Source: an uncultured Desulfobacteraceae bacterium (lineage in GTDB: Bacteria > Desulfobacterota > Desulfobacteria > Desulfobacterales > Desulfatirhabdiaceae). From it: DNA of 42,872 nucleotides. Made by a program: the position numbers and the translations under genes. How positions within the stretch are numbered: position 1 is the first letter of the stretch; every line of letters begins with the position of its first letter. Below are positions 3,145-13,873 of the stretch, in pieces. The notes under the pieces are model-generated. The model did no database searches. It was not told the origin of the DNA and was given only the letters and a program-made list of their open reading frames with translations. The stretch covers positions 1 to 42,872 of the forward strand of contig CAJBLH010000145.1 of assembly GCA_903953895.1 (NCBI GenBank), given 5' to 3'.

Positions 3145-4449
3145 TTAATGATAAATCAATGAAGGCAGCCACAAAGTGATAGGCGGCCAGAAGCAGGCAA
3201 TCAACAGCGCTGCTATGGCTGCAGCGACCAGCGGCATGACCGCGCGGCCGACATCTCCCAGCGGTACGCCGGAAATACCACAACTGACAAAAAGACATAT
3301 TCCCACCGGCGGGGTCAGCATGCCGATGGCCAGATTGACGACCATCAAGACGCCGAACTGAACCGGATCCACTTCCATCTGAGGCGTTAATGCCGCCAGA
3401 ACCGGAACCAGCAGTATCAGGGCCGCCGTTGTTTCCATGACACAGCCGATAACAAGCAGTGCCGCCATGACCAGAAGCAGGAGTCCCCAGGGCGGCAGAC
3501 CCAAGGCGGCCACCGCAGAGCCCAGCAGTTGAGTCGTTTGTTTCATGGCGACCAGCCAGGTAAACACCTTGGCCATGGAAATAATAAAGAGAATGGTGGC
3601 TGCCGTGATCTGGGAGCGGACAATGAGTGTTGGCATATCCTTCCATTTCAGCTCGCGGTTGAAGACCATGCTGACGACCAGGGCATAGAAGACAGCCAGA
3701 GCCGCCGCTTCGGTGACCGTAACGATTCCTGAAAGAATCCCGCCCAGCACGATGACCGGAGCGCCAAGCGCCCAGAAAGCTTCTTTCAGCGTCTGCCATA
3801 CCCGTTGCAGTGAAAAGTGCACCCGGACCCCGTATCCTTTTTGCCAGCATATCCAGATCGATACGGCCATAAAGGAACCGCCGAAAAGAACCCCGACCAG
3901 TATCCCGCCGGCAAAGAGTCTGGCGATGGAAACATTGGTTAAAAAACCAAAAATCACCATGGGAATGGATGGCGGGATGATGACGCCGATCGAGCCGCCT
4001 GCAGCGACCACAGCGGCGGCAAAGGCCGGCGGATAGCCCTGGCGGATCATTGCAGGGATAACGACGGCTCCGATGGCAGCGGTGTCTGCGGCTGCAGAGC
4101 CCGATATTCCGGCAAAAAACATGGACGCCACAATACAGGCGCATGCCAGGCCTCCCGGAGCCCACCCGACCAGGCTGTCTGAAAAATCGATGAGCTGCCG
4201 GGAGATTCCTCCTGTTTCCATGATCGATCCGGCCAGCATAAATAAAGGCACGGCCAGAAGATCGAAAGAATCCACACCGGCAAAAAGCAGTTGGACGATG
4301 GTCTGGCCCAGTGCAGAGAGTTGAACGCCTGCTGGAAAAACGCCCGGAGTCAGCATGAGTCCGATGGCCGGAAGACCGATGGATAAAGCAATGGGAAGCC
4401 CCAGGGCGATCAGCAGGAAAAGCAGTGCAAACAGCAGAATGACCGTCAT
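3145..4449 (-). CDS. dctM: TRAP transporter large permease (DctM)
   Basis: A 434-residue, highly hydrophobic protein with about twelve membrane segments: the DctM subunit of a TRAP (tripartite ATP-independent periplasmic) carboxylate transporter. Family features include the N-terminal LLIALGLPIALSIGLPA helix, DLLAVPLFMLAGSIMETGG, FFAGISGSAAADTAAIG and the IPPSIPMVIFG loop. It forms the ion-driven translocation pathway and works with DctQ and the periplasmic DctP. Its ATG overlaps the DctQ stop in an ATGA (4 bp), a sign of translational coupling. It is the last gene of the TRAP block, 92 bases ahead of the GlcD-like gene on the same strand. Confidence 0.96.
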   Translation of the reverse strand: MTVILLFALLFLLIALGLPIALSIGLPAIGLMLTPGVFPAGVQLSALGQTIVQLLFAGVDSFDLLAVPLFMLAGSIMETGGISRQLIDFSDSLVGWAPGGLACACIVASMFFAGISGSAAADTAAIGAVVIPAMIRQGYPPAFAAAVVAAGGSIGVIIPPSIPMVIFGFLTNVSIARLFAGGILVGVLFGGSFMAVSIWICWQKGYGVRVHFSLQRVWQTLKEAFWALGAPVIVLGGILSGIVTVTEAAALAVFYALVVSMVFNRELKWKDMPTLIVRSQITAATILFIISMAKVFTWLVAMKQTTQLLGSAVAALGLPPWGLLLLVMAALLVIGCVMETTAALILLVPVLAALTPQMEVDPVQFGVLMVVNLAIGMLTPPVGICLFVSCGISGVPLGDVGRAVMPLVAAAIAALLIACFWPPITLWLPSLIYH

Positions 4450-4925
4450 TTCCCGCTCCGTTCAAAAGTCGTTGCCAGGTCCGACAGCACATGCACGATG
4501 AAAACCATCGACGATATCGGGATGACGGCAAAGGGAATCGACATGGGAATTTGCAAAGAAGCCGTCGTATGCTGCCACGCCTTGATCGTGTAGACGGTTC
4601 CAAACCAGGCAAGAATGCAGAAGCATGCAAGGGTTGCCACTTGCAGTGCCACAACGATAATTTTCTGGATGGATGGGCCCAGGCTGTGCCCGATACCCTT
4701 GAGCCCGATAAAGCTCATTCGTTTGTAGGCCGCTGTTCCACCGAGAAAGGTGATGGCCACCAGCAGATGGCGGCTGACTTCCTCGGACCAGCCAAGAGAA
4801 GCGCCGATATATCGTGAGAGTACCTGCGTAAAGAGGATGAGGCAGATGCTTGTGCCGATCACCAGCAGAATTTTCTCGACAATGGCGTTGATCCACAGGC
4901 TTATGCGTTGTAACAACAATATCAT
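4446..4925 (-). CDS. dctQ: TRAP transporter small permease (DctQ)
   Basis: A 159-residue protein with four predicted membrane helices, the small DctQ subunit that scaffolds DctM. The family signature is visible as LSRYIGASLGWSEEVSRHLLVAITFLGG around residues 37-65. It sits between DctP and DctM, overlapping DctM by 4 bp. The start ATG at 4925 follows an AGG-type ribosome site 5 bases upstream. Confidence 0.93.
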   Translation of the reverse strand: MILLLQRISLWINAIVEKILLVIGTSICLILFTQVLSRYIGASLGWSEEVSRHLLVAITFLGGTAAYKRMSFIGLKGIGHSLGPSIQKIIVVALQVATLACFCILAWFGTVYTIKAWQHTTASLQIPMSIPFAVIPISSMVFIVHVLSDLATTFERSGK

Positions 4926-4968
4926 GTCAACCTGTCTTATCTTCCGGGCTGGATGCTGATTTCGAGCT

Positions 4969-5943
4969 TTACTTTACCAACTTGCGGATTTCTTCGATGA
5001 TTTTGCGGGTATCCCCAGTGGTTGCATCCACAACAGGAGCCGTTACTTTCCGAAAGGCTTCGATATCCGGACGCTCTTCGACCTGCATGCCGGCATCCCT
5101 GAGTTCTGCGATTTGCCTGGCCTCGTTATCCCGGATATAGGCGCGGCCTTTCAATGATGCTGTTCGCGCCGCATCCATGATGACCTTTCGGTCGGTTGCG
5201 GGCAGATTGTCCATAAAGGATTTATTGGCCACAAAGACCAGGGCCGAATATACATGCCGGGTCATGGAAAGGAATTTTTGTCCGGCTTCGTTGAGTTTGG
5301 ACCCATAAATTACGGAGATGGGATTTTCCTGGCCATCGATGACCCCCTGTTGCAGTGCCGTGAAGATGGGCCATGCCATGGGAGTGGGATTGGCGCCGAT
5401 GGCTCGCCAGATAGCCAGGTGGGTAGGTGCTTCCATAGTTCGGATTTTTAAACCTTTGGCATCTTCCGGCGTTTTGATGGGACGCTTGGAATTGGTGACA
5501 TTCCGGAAACCATTATCCAGAAAATGAAGGGCCGTGAAGCCGGCCTTTTCGAACCGTTTGGCGAAATCCTGGCCGATGGGGCCGTCCAGAGCAAGGTCGG
5601 CAGCTTCGTAGGAAGGAAGCAGAAACGGCATTTCCAATGCCTTGATTTCAGGAACGAAAGCCTCGATGGGGCCGGTGGTGCAAACAGACATCTGGGTGGC
5701 GCCGACCTGTATCTGCTGCAGGGCCTGGGTCTCACTTCCCAGCGCAGCCGAGTGATGAACAATGATGGCGTATTTGCCGGGGATGACTTTGTCGATTTCT
5801 TCCCTGAACCAATTGGCTGCCCGGGTGTGTACGAGTTCCGGGCTCGTGACGATGGCAATGTTGATCTGTGTTTCGGCTAGTGCTATGCCAGCAAAAGCGG
5901 TTAGGAAAGCTGTAATGATAACCGCGTTCATATAAAAACGCAT
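4969..5943 (-). CDS. dctP: TRAP transporter periplasmic binding protein (DctP)
   Basis: A 324-residue substrate-binding protein. Residues 1-23 are a typical signal peptide ending ALA|ET. The DctP fold is recognisable from ELVHTRAANWFREEIDKV, the GLKIRTMEAPTHL segment with the conserved arginine that clamps a carboxylate, and FTALQQGVIDGQENP near residue 190. The ATG at 5943 is chosen over an upstream in-frame start because AAAGGAGA lies 7 bases before it and the signal peptide begins there. DctP delivers substrate to DctQM. With a hydroxyacid dehydrogenase downstream, a hydroxy- or keto-carboxylate substrate is a reasonable guess. Confidence 0.93.
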   Translation of the reverse strand: MRFYMNAVIITAFLTAFAGIALAETQINIAIVTSPELVHTRAANWFREEIDKVIPGKYAIIVHHSAALGSETQALQQIQVGATQMSVCTTGPIEAFVPEIKALEMPFLLPSYEAADLALDGPIGQDFAKRFEKAGFTALHFLDNGFRNVTNSKRPIKTPEDAKGLKIRTMEAPTHLAIWRAIGANPTPMAWPIFTALQQGVIDGQENPISVIYGSKLNEAGQKFLSMTRHVYSALVFVANKSFMDNLPATDRKVIMDAARTASLKGRAYIRDNEARQIAELRDAGMQVEERPDIEAFRKVTAPVVDATTGDTRKIIEEIRKLVK

Positions 5944-6121
5944 AGAATGTCTCCTTTTCGCTAAAATATGTGATGGAAATGAGTTCATCTGCTGCCGCAC
6001 CGATTGATATCGAGACTAATTATGCAGTAATTGAGGGTGCCCGCATTGTCAAGATAAAACTGGATTTACGATATCACGGCGGTCAAGAGTACAATATGTA
6101 CGTGCCGTTCCTTTGAATTTA

Positions 6122-7852
6122 TTACATTTCCACCAGCAGCAGCCATCCGGAACACAGGATGATGGTGATGATCATCGGGATAAAGGCCGCCTTCAGATAA
6201 GCCATGAAGGAGATGGGATAGCCCGCCCGCTCGGCCATGCCAACAGTAACCACATTGGCGCTGGCCCCGATCATGGTGCCGTTGCCGCCCAGGCAGGCTC
6301 CCAACGCCAATGCCCACCACAAGATGCCGCTCTGGGCTCCGGGAATGGCTGTTGTCAGATATCCCACGATCGGCAGCATGGTGGCGGTGAACGGGATGTT
6401 GTCGAGGATGGCGGAGGCTATGGCCGATACCCACAGAATCATGAGAACTGCGACAGTGAGGTTTCCCTGGGAGATATCCTTGACCCAGCCGGCGATGATC
6501 TGGATCAGGCCGGTTTCCTCTGCCCCGGCAACGACCATGAAAAGCATGATGAAAAAAATCAGCGTGGGCCACTCGATTTCTTTTTCAAGCATTTCGACGA
6601 TGTCCACCCTGCTGATCGCCATCAATATGGCTGCTCCGATCATGGCGGCGATACTGGGCTCCATATGCAATATGCCGTGAATGATAAAAAGAAAAATGAC
6701 AATCCCGAGAGTGGTTCCGCATTGAATCAACAGACTCTTGTTGGTAATTTTGTATTCATCCCGAAGCTTTTCGATCATCTTTCCTACGTCTCCCACCTGG
6801 GCCTTGAGGTAGTCTTTTTTGTACCAGTACAGAAAATAAATCATGACAAATACAAGGCAGATCATATTGATGAGAGACATATTCTTGATAAAATCAACAA
6901 AAGACAGTTTGGCGTAGGATCCGATCATGATATTGGGGGGATCGCCGATCAGAGTAGCGGCGCCGCCGACGTTGGAGGCGAAGACCTCGGGCATCAGCAG
7001 GGAAATCGGGTTGATCTTTAATGTCAGCGCGATTTCGATGGTTACTGGAATGATCAGGAGCATGGTTGTAACGTTGTCTAAAAATGCTGATGTCACGGCG
7101 GTGATGAACATGAGGATGGCCGCCAGAACAAAAACGTTGCCTTTAGCCATTTGATAGGACTTATAGGCCATCCACTGGAAAACACCGGTTTTTTTCATGA
7201 CTCCGACGATCATCATCATGGCCATTAATAGAAAGATAACGTTCATGTCGATGGCGTGAATGGCCTCTTCGTATGTCAGAATGACAAAGTTCGGGTTGAA
7301 CGATCCCGCAGTGTAGGTAATGGCAAGAAGAACCGATGCGCCCAGAAAAGCCGCCAGGGTACGGTGCATAAGCTCAAAAGCAATCAGTGCATAGACGATA
7401 ATTAAAACGAGGCTGGCGATCCAGAAAGCGGGGGTGATGGCCCGGATCAGGCTGAAATTGCGCTGAGCCAGGTAGTGGTCCACGCCGTTTTCATCGCCTT
7501 GCTCCCAAACGATGTTCATCAGAGAAATATGTCCCGAGTTTTTAAAGGAAGGTTTTTCCGCTTCTATCTGTATTTTTGCTCCGGCCAGCGAGCCTTTGGG
7601 CAAAGTCAGCTCCGCTTTATAACCACCTGATATTGAAGTGGTTACTTCCTCTTTGATATGTATCTTCTTGCCATTTAAAAAAAACTGGAGAGCCACATCT
7701 TTCAGGGGTTTCCCCTGATCGTTGGTAATGGTTCCGGTCACCACCAGGATATCGGTCGGATCACTGCCGGCATGTACCACAGCCACGGAGGCCAGTTCCA
7801 TGACCATCAGCCAGATCAGAAGCGCCCCCATCATTAATTTATTTTTTGTCAT
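6122..7852 (-). CDS. ArsB/NhaD-type anion permease with N-terminal secreted beta domain (copy A)
   Basis: A 576-residue protein: signal-like helix (residues 1-27), a periplasmic domain of about 110 residues resembling carboxypeptidase regulatory/Ig-like folds (VVTGTITNDQGKPLKDVALQ, then TTSISGGYKAEL), and an ion-transporter-superfamily permease from about residue 140. Permease motifs are LDNVTTMLLIIP, NVGGAATLIGDPPN, LDNIPFTATMLP and GNGTMIGASANVV. Members exchange or co-transport anions or Na+ (ArsB, NhaD, SLC13); the substrate cannot be read. The ATG at 7852 matches the start of copy B at 12143-13873, which has the same length and is nearly identical through the permease half. An orphan DctQ gene lies 78 bases upstream, probably in the same operon. 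A start further upstream is possible but has no ribosome site. Confidence 0.85.
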   Translation of the reverse strand: MTKNKLMMGALLIWLMVMELASVAVVHAGSDPTDILVVTGTITNDQGKPLKDVALQFFLNGKKIHIKEEVTTSISGGYKAELTLPKGSLAGAKIQIEAEKPSFKNSGHISLMNIVWEQGDENGVDHYLAQRNFSLIRAITPAFWIASLVLIIVYALIAFELMHRTLAAFLGASVLLAITYTAGSFNPNFVILTYEEAIHAIDMNVIFLLMAMMMIVGVMKKTGVFQWMAYKSYQMAKGNVFVLAAILMFITAVTSAFLDNVTTMLLIIPVTIEIALTLKINPISLLMPEVFASNVGGAATLIGDPPNIMIGSYAKLSFVDFIKNMSLINMICLVFVMIYFLYWYKKDYLKAQVGDVGKMIEKLRDEYKITNKSLLIQCGTTLGIVIFLFIIHGILHMEPSIAAMIGAAILMAISRVDIVEMLEKEIEWPTLIFFIMLFMVVAGAEETGLIQIIAGWVKDISQGNLTVAVLMILWVSAIASAILDNIPFTATMLPIVGYLTTAIPGAQSGILWWALALGACLGGNGTMIGASANVVTVGMAERAGYPISFMAYLKAAFIPMIITIILCSGWLLLVEM

Positions 7853-7930: not shown

Positions 7931-8446
7931 TTATATTGATTTCAACCCGCTGATTTTTTTGGCCTTTTCTGCGGCGACATCCTGGTACAGCACCTGAAGG
8001 GTTCGTATCAGCGTCAATCCGCCCATCAGCGGTATCAATGCATAAAGGCAGACCATCGGAATCTGCATAATGATGGTCGTCTGGCCGGTACTTGCCTGCT
8101 GAATGGCCATCTTCCACCCGTAAACCAGCATGATCAACGAAAATACGATGGTCGCCAGATTGCTGAAAACAATCAAGGGAAATCGGGTTCTGGGAAAGAA
8201 TTGAAGCAACACGTCCACCTTGATCATGGACCTGTTTTTGACCGATACACTTAAACCGATAAAAGTCGTATAGATAAGTACCAGTTTTATGTATTCTTCC
8301 GACCAGGCCAGGGTGTAATTGAAGCCATATCGCAGAACTACATTTGCAAATAAAGCCAGCAGCCCCGTCATAACCATCAGGAAAATGCTCCATTCCTCAA
8401 ACAATGTCAGACCTTTATCCACAGTATTCAGTATCTTTTTCATCAT
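7931..8446 (-). CDS. Orphan TRAP-type small permease (DctQ family)
   Basis: A 171-residue, four-helix protein of the DctQ family. It shows the signature VLRYGFNYTLAWSEEYIKLV followed by the GLSVSVKNRSMIKVDVL stretch. No DctM or DctP gene is next to it; instead the ArsB/NhaD-type permease copy A follows 78 bases downstream. The ATG at 8446 is chosen because AAGGAG lies 8 bases upstream; the next codon is also ATG. The 142-bp repeat with a built-in terminator begins just upstream of the ribosome site, so expression may be attenuated in the leader. It may act as a scaffold for the downstream permease (inference). Confidence 0.85.
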   Translation of the reverse strand: MMKKILNTVDKGLTLFEEWSIFLMVMTGLLALFANVVLRYGFNYTLAWSEEYIKLVLIYTTFIGLSVSVKNRSMIKVDVLLQFFPRTRFPLIVFSNLATIVFSLIMLVYGWKMAIQQASTGQTTIIMQIPMVCLYALIPLMGGLTLIRTLQVLYQDVAAEKAKKISGLKSI

Positions 8447-8461
8447 GTCATATTCTCCTTT

Positions 8462-8603
8462 GCATAAAACTGATTCAGAGCCACGCGGTTTTGTTGCAAT
8501 CCATTGAACACGGTTCCAAATAAAAAAGCCGCTAAACACGAATAAATCGTGATAGCGGCCCGACCATCATAATTCCCTCTGAGAAGACTACGTTCTCAGA
8601 CCC
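8462..8603 (-). repeat. Leader repeat, copy 1 (next to orphan dctQ)
   Basis: This 142-bp unit aligns without gaps to a second unit at 8691-8832. Read on the minus strand it has a perfect 8-bp hairpin (TCTGAGAA/TTCTCAGA, 8578-8600), a linker containing GATGGTCGG, a strong terminator (8522-8559) and a conserved tail ending at the dctQ ribosome site. The arms are conserved while the loop bases differ between copies, which suggests a selected RNA structure. It could be a cis-regulatory leader or a small RNA; I do not recognise a known riboswitch class. Confidence 0.8.
8522..8559 (-). terminator. Intrinsic terminator inside leader copy 1
   Basis: On the minus strand GCCGCTATCACGA pairs with TCGTGTTTAGCGGC, followed by TTTTTTATTT. 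It lies about 75 bases upstream of the dctQ start, so transcription must read through it to express dctQ and permease copy A. This is the layout of an attenuator. Confidence 0.8.
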
Positions 8604-8690
8604 TGGTGAAAATTAAATTTTTCTCTGTTGAATAAGAAAGCGCTGTCAGCGCCCAAAGAGTTTCTTAACCATCCATTTTATTTTCCATTT

Positions 8691-8832
8691 GTATAAAACT
8701 GACTCAGAGCTACGCGGTTTGGTTGCACTTCATTGAACACGGTTCCAAATAAAAAAGCCGCCAAACACGAATAAATCGTGATAGCGGCCCGACCATCATT
8801 ACTCCCTCTGAGAAGACTATATTCTCAGACCC
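8691..8832 (-). repeat. Leader repeat, copy 2 (distal)
   Basis: This is the second 142-bp unit, 87 bases upstream of copy 1 in the direction of transcription. It retains hairpin 1 (8807-8829) and the terminator (8751-8788). In the terminator stem one A-U pair of copy 1 is a G-U wobble here, so pairing is kept. Similarity continues a little past the 5' end (an AATTTA-rich stretch). Its 3' side does not lead into dctQ but into a short stretch with a possible 8-codon frame, MVKKLFGR (8646-8672), whose stop lies in a small GCGCT/AGCGC hairpin. Confidence 0.78.
8751..8788 (-). terminator. Intrinsic terminator inside leader copy 2
   Basis: The same stem as in copy 1, GCCGCTATCACGA with TCGTGTTTGGCGGC, followed by TTTTTT on the minus strand. 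Two terminators in series would give a steep on/off response if both are regulated. Confidence 0.77.
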
Positions 8833-8859
8833 GAAAAAAAAATAAATTTTCAACCAATT

Positions 8860-8888
8860 ATCATAACCACCTTATGATGTCTATAAAA
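8860..8888 (-). promoter_or_regulatory. Candidate promoter of the tandem leader
   Basis: On the minus strand TATGAT (8860-8865) matches five of six -10 positions and has a poor -35 (TTTTAT) 17 bases upstream. Transcription would start about 20 bases before leader copy 2. The -35 is weak, so this is tentative. Confidence 0.3.
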
Positions 8889-12142: not shown

Positions 12143-13873
12143 TTATATTTCCACCAGCAGCAACCACGCGGAACACAGGATGATGGTGATGATCATCGGG
12201 ATGAAGGCCGCCTTCAGGTAAGCCATGAAGGAGATGGGGTAGCCCGCCCGTTCGGCCATACCCACAGTGACCACATTGGCGCTGGCCCCGATCATGGTGC
12301 CGTTTCCGCCCAGGCAGGCTCCCAGAGCCAGCGCCCACCACAATACGCCACCTTGGGCTCCGGGGATGACAGTCGTCAGATATCCCACGATCGGCAGCAT
12401 GGTGGCGGTGAACGGGATGTTGTCGATAATAGCAGAGGCCAGGGCGGATACCCACAGTACCATCAGGATGGCCACCACGAGATTGCCCTGGGAGATATCC
12501 TTGACCCAGCCGGCGATGATCTGGATAAGACCGGTTTCCTCGGCCCCGGCAACGACCATAAAGAGCATGATGAAAAAAATCAGCGTGGGCCACTCGATTT
12601 CTTTTTCAAGCATTTCGACAATATCCACCTTGCTGATCACCATCAAGACTGCCGCTCCGATCATGGCCGCGATGCTGGGCTCCATATGCAGGATGCCATG
12701 AATGATGAAAAGAAAAATGACAATTGCAAGAATGGTTCCGCATTGGATCAAAAGGCTCTTGTTGGTGATCTTGTATTCTTCCCGAAGCTTTGTGATCATC
12801 TTTCCCACATCCCCTACCTGGGCCATCAAATAGTCTTTTTTATACCAATAAAGGAAATAGACGATGGTAATGGCAAGGCCAATTACATTAACCAGGGATA
12901 GATTCATGATAAAATCGACAAATGACAGTTTGGCATAAGATCCGATCATGATGTTGGGGGGGTCGCCAATCAAGGTGGCCGTACCGCCGACGTTGGAAGC
13001 GAAAACCTCTGGCATCAGCAGGGAAAGCGGGTTGATTTTTAATGTCAGCGCGATTTCAATGGTTACCGGAATGATGAGAAGCATGGTTGTAACATTGTCT
13101 AGAAAAGCCGAAGTAAGTGCCGTGACGAACATGAGAATGGCAGCCAGAACAAAAACATTGCCCTTGGCGGTCTGATAGGATTTATAGGCCATCCACTGGA
13201 AAACGCCGGTTTTTTTCATGACCCCGACAATGAGCATCATTGCCATCAAAAGAAAAATCACATTCATGTCGATAGCATTTATGGCTTCTTCATAAGTTAA
13301 AATGACAAAATCCGGATTGAATGATCCGGCTGTATAGGTAATGGTAAGAAGAACCGATGCACCCAGAAAAGCTGCGAGGGTCCGATGCATGAGTTCGAAT
13401 GCAATCAGCGCATAGACTGCAAGCAAAACGAGGCTGGCGATCCAGAAAGCAGGTGTGACGACACGGACCAAGGTAAAATTGTGATGGGCCAGGTAGTAGC
13501 CCACGCCGTTTACATCGTCTTTTTCCCGAACGATGTTCTCCAGAACAATATGGCCGGAGCTTTTAAAGGAAGGCTTTTCAGCATCCATCTCCACCATAGC
13601 TCCGGCCAGCGATCCCTTGGATACGATCAATTCGGCTTCATATCTGCCGGATTTTGAAGTGGTTACTTCTTCTTCGATATCAATCTTTTTTCCATTCAGG
13701 AAAAACTGAAGACGCACATCTTTCAGCGGTTTTGCTTGATCGTTGGTGATGGTTCCGGACACCACCAGAACATCGGAAGGGCCGCCGCCGGCATATACAT
13801 GGGCCATGGGCGCAATTCCCAAGACCAGCAGCCAGACGATGAGTGAGCCGGCAATCAATTTATTTTTTGTCAT
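12143..13873 (-). CDS. ArsB/NhaD-type anion permease with N-terminal secreted beta domain (copy B)
   Basis: A 576-residue paralogue of the gene at 6122-7852 with the same three-part layout: signal helix (1-28), beta domain at about residues 33-135 (VVSGTITNDQAKPLKDVRLQ), and permease. Motifs: LDNVTTMLLIIP (DN at 259-260), NVGGTATLIGDPPN (294-307), DNIPFTATMLP (484-494), GNGTMIGASANVV (523-535). The permease halves match almost residue for residue while the beta domains differ more, suggesting duplication followed by divergence of the external domain. The uspA gene lies 71 bases downstream. Unlike copy A it has no DctQ gene and no repeated leader. Substrate unknown. Confidence 0.86.
   Translation of the reverse strand: MTKNKLIAGSLIVWLLVLGIAPMAHVYAGGGPSDVLVVSGTITNDQAKPLKDVRLQFFLNGKKIDIEEEVTTSKSGRYEAELIVSKGSLAGAMVEMDAEKPSFKSSGHIVLENIVREKDDVNGVGYYLAHHNFTLVRVVTPAFWIASLVLLAVYALIAFELMHRTLAAFLGASVLLTITYTAGSFNPDFVILTYEEAINAIDMNVIFLLMAMMLIVGVMKKTGVFQWMAYKSYQTAKGNVFVLAAILMFVTALTSAFLDNVTTMLLIIPVTIEIALTLKINPLSLLMPEVFASNVGGTATLIGDPPNIMIGSYAKLSFVDFIMNLSLVNVIGLAITIVYFLYWYKKDYLMAQVGDVGKMITKLREEYKITNKSLLIQCGTILAIVIFLFIIHGILHMEPSIAAMIGAAVLMVISKVDIVEMLEKEIEWPTLIFFIMLFMVVAGAEETGLIQIIAGWVKDISQGNLVVAILMVLWVSALASAIIDNIPFTATMLPIVGYLTTVIPGAQGGVLWWALALGACLGGNGTMIGASANVVTVGMAERAGYPISFMAYLKAAFIPMIITIILCSAWLLLVEI

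Follow-up and report, generated by a model that had tools for sequence, protein, structure and literature searches.

A tandem pair of nhaA-I-family (Li+-I/Na+-II) riboswitches with likely concerted evolution precedes a dctQ-permease gene pair in an uncultured Desulfobacteraceae bacterium

Introduction

RNAs of the nhaA-I motif were published in 2022 as Li+-I riboswitches (White et al. 2022, PMC9646797). According to the main text of that report, its authors believe that most of these RNAs work at the ribosome site, and nhaA is commonly the gene behind them. Rare deltaproteobacterial variants carry terminators, and one such RNA from Desulfobulbus propionicus answers Na+, which led to the name Na+-II, a class that in the main text rests on one assayed natural RNA. 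Tandem and triple nhaA-I arrays are also described there, including one triple array with terminators that precedes nhaD. That report thus already covers the class, the terminator platform and the tandem arrangement, and the ON mechanism has been published for the same architecture, as outlined in PMC9646797 and PMC9337991. The words 'TRAP' and 'dct' are absent from the main text of PMC9646797. Na+-I riboswitches (DUF1646 motif, as outlined in PMC9337991) resemble the RNAs considered here in the exclusion between P2 and terminator and in their ON logic, and differ in having another consensus.

Here we analyze a stretch of 42,872 nucleotides from an uncultured Desulfobacteraceae bacterium (hereafter the window). 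A preliminary description, made from the sequence alone, had singled out a repeated, structured leader in front of a transporter gene. We find that this tandem pair is a real, well-formed riboswitch of known class, with likely concerted evolution of its copies.

Results

Two nhaA-I aptamers lie in one leader

An Rfam scan of the window gave three matches, two to nhaA-I (RF03057) and one to 5S rRNA at the window's edge. Both nhaA-I matches are on the minus strand, with E-values of 1.1e-5 (downstream copy) and 1.7e-5 (upstream copy) for the 42.9 kb window, and chance resemblance was rejected because both copies exceed the Rfam gathering score of 37 bits. The DUF1646 model is part of the Rfam collection, and neither it nor any other Rfam family besides nhaA-I and 5S rRNA was reported as a match in the window. 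A whole-genome search found only these two copies of RF03057 in the bacterium's own assembly. The features of the locus, in the order of transcription on the minus strand, are as follows.

8860-8865, minus strand: candidate -10 element TATGAT, about 28 nt ahead of the upstream aptamer (consensus match; kept in two relatives)
8779-8832, minus strand: upstream nhaA-I aptamer, with P1, linker and P2 with loop CGGGCC (RF03057, 43.5 bits)
8792, minus strand: U at model position 42 of the upstream copy, putative Li+/Na+ determinant (from sequence; mapping putative)
8751-8789, minus strand: upstream intrinsic terminator, U tract 8751-8756 (-20.3 kcal/mol, z -6.0)
8604-8690, minus strand: spacer separating the 142-nt units, with partial positional orthology in two relatives (sequence comparison)
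8550-8603, minus strand: downstream nhaA-I aptamer (RF03057, 44.3 bits)
8563, minus strand: U at model position 42 of the downstream copy, putative Li+/Na+ determinant (from sequence; mapping putative)
8522-8560, minus strand: downstream intrinsic terminator, U tract 8522-8527 (-20.6 kcal/mol, z -7.1)
7931-8443, minus strand: dctQ-like small membrane subunit, first gene, ATG at 8446 or 8443 (PF04290, 94.8 bits)
6122-7852, minus strand: CitMHS permease (ArsB/NhaD-like), 576 aa, second gene (PF03600, 287 bits)
3145-6000, minus strand: TRAP set farther downstream, with dctP 4969-6000, dctQ 4446-4925 and dctM 3145-4449 (gene-family search)

The aptamers belong to two units of 142 nt (8462-8603 and 8691-8832) that align without gaps and are identical at 131 of 142 positions, in agreement with the preliminary description; the ungapped direct repeat around them spans 192 nt at 84% (8430-8621 and 8659-8850, a step of 229). 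Elsewhere in the genome, a repeat search gave just 15-21 nt matches. A chance repeat or a mobile element was rejected, given that no further copy was found in the genome, and given Rfam membership and positional orthology.

Each unit shows the structural hallmarks of nhaA-I, P1 and P2 with the conserved GGGU...AGG and CGGGCC, and resembles Li+-I RNAs in its aptamer secondary structure, CGGGCC loop and U at model position 42. P1 opens with a C-G pair here, where the RF03057 consensus has G-C. The hairpin originally reported in each unit is P1 (CUGAGAA/UUCUCAG), whereas the 'GATGGTCGG' that had been called a linker is actually the P2 5' strand together with the beginning of the P2 loop. As also first described, the downstream unit stops at the AAGGAGAA ribosome site (8453-8460) ahead of dctQ, giving the minus-strand order of candidate -10 element, aptamer, terminator, spacer, aptamer, terminator, ribosome site and dctQ. 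The promoter scan was at chance level (7 matches found against 6.6 expected).

Each aptamer shares a strand with an intrinsic terminator

Both units contain the strong minus-strand terminators that had been proposed, with z-scores calculated against 200 shuffles, and the reported G-U wobble is present as U8783-G8762 in the upstream copy, compared to U8554-A8533 in the downstream copy. A simple terminator scan of the window listed neither terminator. The upstream P2 3' strand (8785-8779) sits inside the terminator 5' strand (8789-8782 and 8780-8776), and the downstream copy has the same arrangement with coordinates 229 lower (P2 3' strand 8556-8550). Since this strand is common to aptamer and terminator, both structures cannot form together. 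When the full units are folded, the minimum-energy structure contains the terminator in place of the aptamer, indicating that each switch would be OFF by default and that a ligand holding P2 would turn transcription ON. Taken in isolation, the downstream aptamer has a minimum-energy fold other than the consensus, and either aptamer by itself is barely more stable than shuffles (z -0.9 for both).

An intrinsic terminator that forms at the aptamer's expense is one mark of Na+-II, and it is predicted here for both units and backed by the comparative data below. Compared with the D. propionicus RNA as presented in the main text of PMC9646797, the locus has the same Rfam family, deltaproteobacterial setting, terminator logic and ON switch, and differs in carrying U rather than C at the putative determinant, in its tandem arrangement and in its dctQ-CitMHS target. 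With the Li+-I arrays of that report it shares serial copies and, in the case of the triple array before nhaD, one terminator per aptamer; those arrays come from environmental sequence, here two copies precede dctQ-CitMHS, and in both cases the ligand is a putative one. We consider it highly probable that the leader holds tandem nhaA-I-family (Li+-I/Na+-II) riboswitches that are both transcriptional ON switches, a judgement that covers the tandem ON-switch reading and not the ligand. Counting against it are the U at the putative determinant, the folds of the isolated aptamers, the chance-level promoter scan and the scarcity of the leader among permease homologues, including the window's own paralogue.

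The preliminary description had also raised the idea of two small RNA gene copies whose terminated transcripts are the product, and a strong terminator that closes each unit would indeed yield short RNAs. Against this, the units contain the aptamer of a validated riboswitch class, the terminator strand is common to P2, and the strand of the RNAs and their placement ahead of dctQ are conserved in three genomes, so that this idea is unsupported and we give it next to no credence. What held from that description is a tandem, riboswitch-like structured leader with one terminator per copy; its view that the RNA is of no known class and that dctQ is an orphan transporter gene did not survive the Rfam assignment and the CitMHS permease gene that comes next after dctQ.

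The leader precedes a dctQ-CitMHS gene pair

The permease at 6122-7852 also matches the ArsB and Na_sulph_symp families, and its matches to the NCBIfam MamN, ArsB, DASS and NhaD models all fall below the cut-offs (56.7 vs 577.1 bits for NhaD, TIGR00775). The dctPQM TRAP set is possibly co-transcribed with the dctQ-permease pair. Within the dctQ coding sequence, 12 nt (8068-8079) are perfectly complementary to the aptamer's UAAUGAUGGUCG; two relatives keep 10 neighbouring bases of this complement, where one base differs, and codons may explain the conservation.

The same permease family stands behind the RNA in three other genomes (G255, G049 and G085), with a 203-aa frame between RNA and permease in G049, and in G296 a permease-family gene starts 3.5 kb downstream of an RNA that scores 35.3 bits, below gathering. 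A permease homologue at E <= 1e-100 was found in 72 of 395 genomes, and the RNA lies close upstream in four of these 72 (five with G296), showing that most permease homologues are without it. Among 30 homologue loci, the RNA occurs within the covered stretch in two, the window's own (L108) and L176. No nhaA-I leader was found before the window's 85% paralogue permease (12143-13873), nor at the paralogue's counterpart in G572 and at a 58% homologue in G511 (L109, L110). The two permeases of the window flank a universal-stress-protein gene, a kinase gene and two response-regulator genes, and on a single G572 contig one such permease comes with the RNA and a second without it. At another locus, a group II intron RNA match (RF02001; L185, 735-902) adjoins a CitMHS homologue. 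A general pairing of DctQ with CitMHS was rejected: of 40 loci searched, several of which overlap, just those of the window, G572 and L164 have both.

Tandem copies resemble each other within genomes

The same tandem pair precedes dctQ and the permease in G572, which is of the same genus (contig L138), and in L164, an uncultured Desulfobacteraceae MAG. Both copies in each of these relatives exceed the Rfam gathering score. The 60-nt flanks upstream of the units gave 0.64-0.89 when compared at the same position and 0.48-0.53 when compared across positions. This positional orthology of both flanks disfavours separate duplications in the individual species.

The units themselves show a different pattern. 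Across the three genomes, 10 unit columns are concerted, meaning that the copies agree within a genome and differ between genomes (3 of the 10 are gap columns), 0 are orthologous and 25 are mixed. Copy identity within genomes is 0.914, 0.934 and 0.98, compared to 0.868-0.928 between genomes at the same position; in G572 the copies are 0.934 identical to each other, and the upstream copy is 0.928 identical to that of L164. In a tree of moderate support the window's copies group together (93/90), as do those of L164 (81/81), neither group being starred, and those of G572 are not joined. This pattern suggests an old duplication whose copies were kept alike by concerted evolution, for which the sequence evidence is good in the window and L164 and weak in G572. 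A narrow literature search did not find 'tandem riboswitch' together with 'concerted evolution'.

These comparisons also bear on whether only the downstream copy works, with the upstream copy a decaying duplicate. The upstream copy of L164 is without one pair at the terminator foot, as decay might produce. On the other hand, GGGU, the CGGGCC loop and P2 are identical in all six compared copies and the units agree within genomes, and we think decay very unlikely.

Terminator-type nhaA-I RNAs are found across the phylum

The preliminary description had proposed an Rfam and covariance comparison and would have been undercut by a lack of homologues outside the locus or by stems that do not covary. 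Homologues exist in other genomes of the phylum, P1 and P2 covary, and some of the RNAs precede transporter genes. Under search filters stricter than usual, with which weak matches are lost, 40 of the 395 genomes sampled from the phylum and 7 of the 242 from the order gave RF03057 matches, the window's genome being counted in both samples; in one other order, 28 of 46 genomes did so. The phylum and order samples together gave 73 matches at 61 sites in 46 genomes. Eleven sites are tandem or triple, counting one (G069) with copies 461 nt apart and one copy below gathering.

Sixty of the 73 matches are followed by a U-tract hairpin whose first base is model position 46, so that it uses the P2 3' strand; after shuffling of the downstream 60 nt, the mean was 1.8 and the maximum 5. 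A looser count of U-tract hairpins gave 65/73 (7.8 when shuffled) and includes two ribosome-site hairpins (G403 and G461). In the P1 and P2 stems of 56 of the 75 listed aptamers, 97.0% of cells are paired vs 83.2% when shuffled, 145 cells are double-changed vs 39 (0/500 shuffles), and the covariation score is 0.600 vs 0.317 for shuffled and <=0.185 for slid partners. P2 is paired in 94.5% of cells over all 73 matches (414/438; shuffled mean 392.5, 0/2000 shuffles), and in the 60 matches with a registered terminator the P2 strand pairs with the terminator strand at 334 of 360 positions (312.4 shuffled, 0/2000 shuffles); because the rows are related, these shuffle figures are not probabilities. 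The bases at model positions 40 and 51 and the terminator partner are G/C/G in 25 of the 60, A/U/A in 18, G/U/A in 8 and others in 9.

We tallied 40 genes chosen from downstream of the RNA, some of them not the gene directly behind it. Ten are cation exchangers, antiporters or CitMHS (3 CitMHS, 2 Na_H_Exchanger/TrkA, 2 Na/Ca exchangers, 2 NhaA and 1 NhaB), and the other 30 comprise 6 pentapeptide, 4 Peripla_BP_6, 1 DctP, 10 genes of other families and 9 without a family. The six pentapeptide-repeat genes are small (behind the RNAs of L047, L048, L050, L054, L058 and L063), and all belong to family f62, a member of that other order in which the RNA occurs in 28 of 46 genomes.

Other arrangements were also seen. 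At L054 (421-662), a tandem pair has identical aptamers, with a U tract after the first copy; by eye, the second copy leads into a ribosome site and start codon, and this array perhaps combines termination and translation platforms. A triple nhaA-I array in G133 (L062, 4014-4364) has a U-tract hairpin behind each copy and precedes a 159-aa protein without a Pfam match. In four RNAs from three genomes of the same order (L099, L100, L103 and L106), model position 5 is G or A, and inspection by eye suggests that a ribosome site instead of a terminator lies downstream. At L106 a 116-aa frame comes first and nhaB second; the main text of PMC9646797, in which first genes only were counted, states that these RNAs were never associated with nhaB.

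The putative ligand determinant is U in both copies

In the main text of PMC9646797, position 54 of the D. propionicus construct is C in the Na+-responsive RNA and U in most nhaA-I RNAs, and the assayed RNAs with U answer Li+. Model position 42 most likely corresponds to this position. In four 64-nt C-type aptamers (G237, G215_C256, G045 and G140) the C is nt 51, and 3 additional bases at the 5' end of a 71-nt construct would place it at 54; the conserved GG mutated in the P. monteilii construct is 56/57 (main text of PMC9646797); this arithmetic and the GG position are consistent with the mapping, not proof of it. A pattern scan of the genome contigs, with a pattern that was maybe too strict, did not recover the D. 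propionicus RNA.

Position 42 is U in 63 of the 73 matches and C in 10. Terminator-type RNAs thus mostly have U, and platform and putative determinant are not linked. CitMHS genes follow C-type RNAs in G049 and G085_C20 and U-type RNAs in the window, G572 and G255; Peripla_BP_6 genes likewise follow RNAs of either type. A pyrimidine (Y) at model position 5, where the Rfam consensus has G, is found in 67 matches, 59 of them with a registered terminator, and other bases in 6 matches, 1 of them with a terminator (post hoc Fisher P 0.0005, with related rows). The window belongs to the Y5-plus-terminator group. Its putative determinant is Li+-like, while in platform and opening P1 pair it is similar to the terminator-bearing (Na+-II-like) RNAs.

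If U at model position 42 makes these RNAs true Li+-I sensors on a terminator platform, the pair would be a Li+-specific tandem switch for a permease that expels Li+. This concerns the ligand only, as the tandem ON-switch mechanism is common to both readings. The U in both copies and in most matches fits a Li+ sensor, as do the published responses of U-type RNAs and two NhaA genes behind U42 terminator RNAs in G507, a genome of the same order. However, with the C54U change the Na+-II RNA responded to Li+, Na+ and NH4+ rather than to Li+ alone (main text of PMC9646797), and P1 opens with a Y-R pair, in line with the other terminator RNAs and unlike the Rfam G-C. We regard Li+ specificity as a real possibility, somewhat short of an even chance. 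Since C54U broadened rather than switched the response, we would rate a response to Na+, or an equal one to Na+ and Li+, a little above one to Li+ alone.

Discussion

In the tandem ON-switch reading, transcription would start slightly upstream of 8832. With no ligand, the P2 3' strand (GCUAUCA) would be absorbed into the terminator and RNA polymerase would halt at the U tract. With a small alkali cation bound, P1 and P2 with the CGGGCC loop would be held, no terminator would form and transcription would pass. RNA polymerase would meet two such gates in series, so that output would be roughly the product of two read-through probabilities, with lower leak and a steeper response. The output would be the dctQ-like protein and the CitMHS/ArsB-NhaD-type permease, plausibly for cation or pH homeostasis.

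A more doubtful proposal than Li+ specificity, offered tentatively, is that the form prevailing in this phylum, with U42, a pyrimidine-first P1 and the terminator platform, is a third specificity group that answers Na+ and Li+ alike, and that gene conversion holds the tandem copies near-identical because matched serial gates are selected for a sharp ion-transporter threshold.

These findings indicate that terminator-type nhaA-I RNAs are spread across the phylum (73 matches, 61 sites, 46 genomes), and a natural panel for comparing ligand specificity is now at hand. Within-genome agreement of the tandem copies points to the upkeep of matched gates in series.
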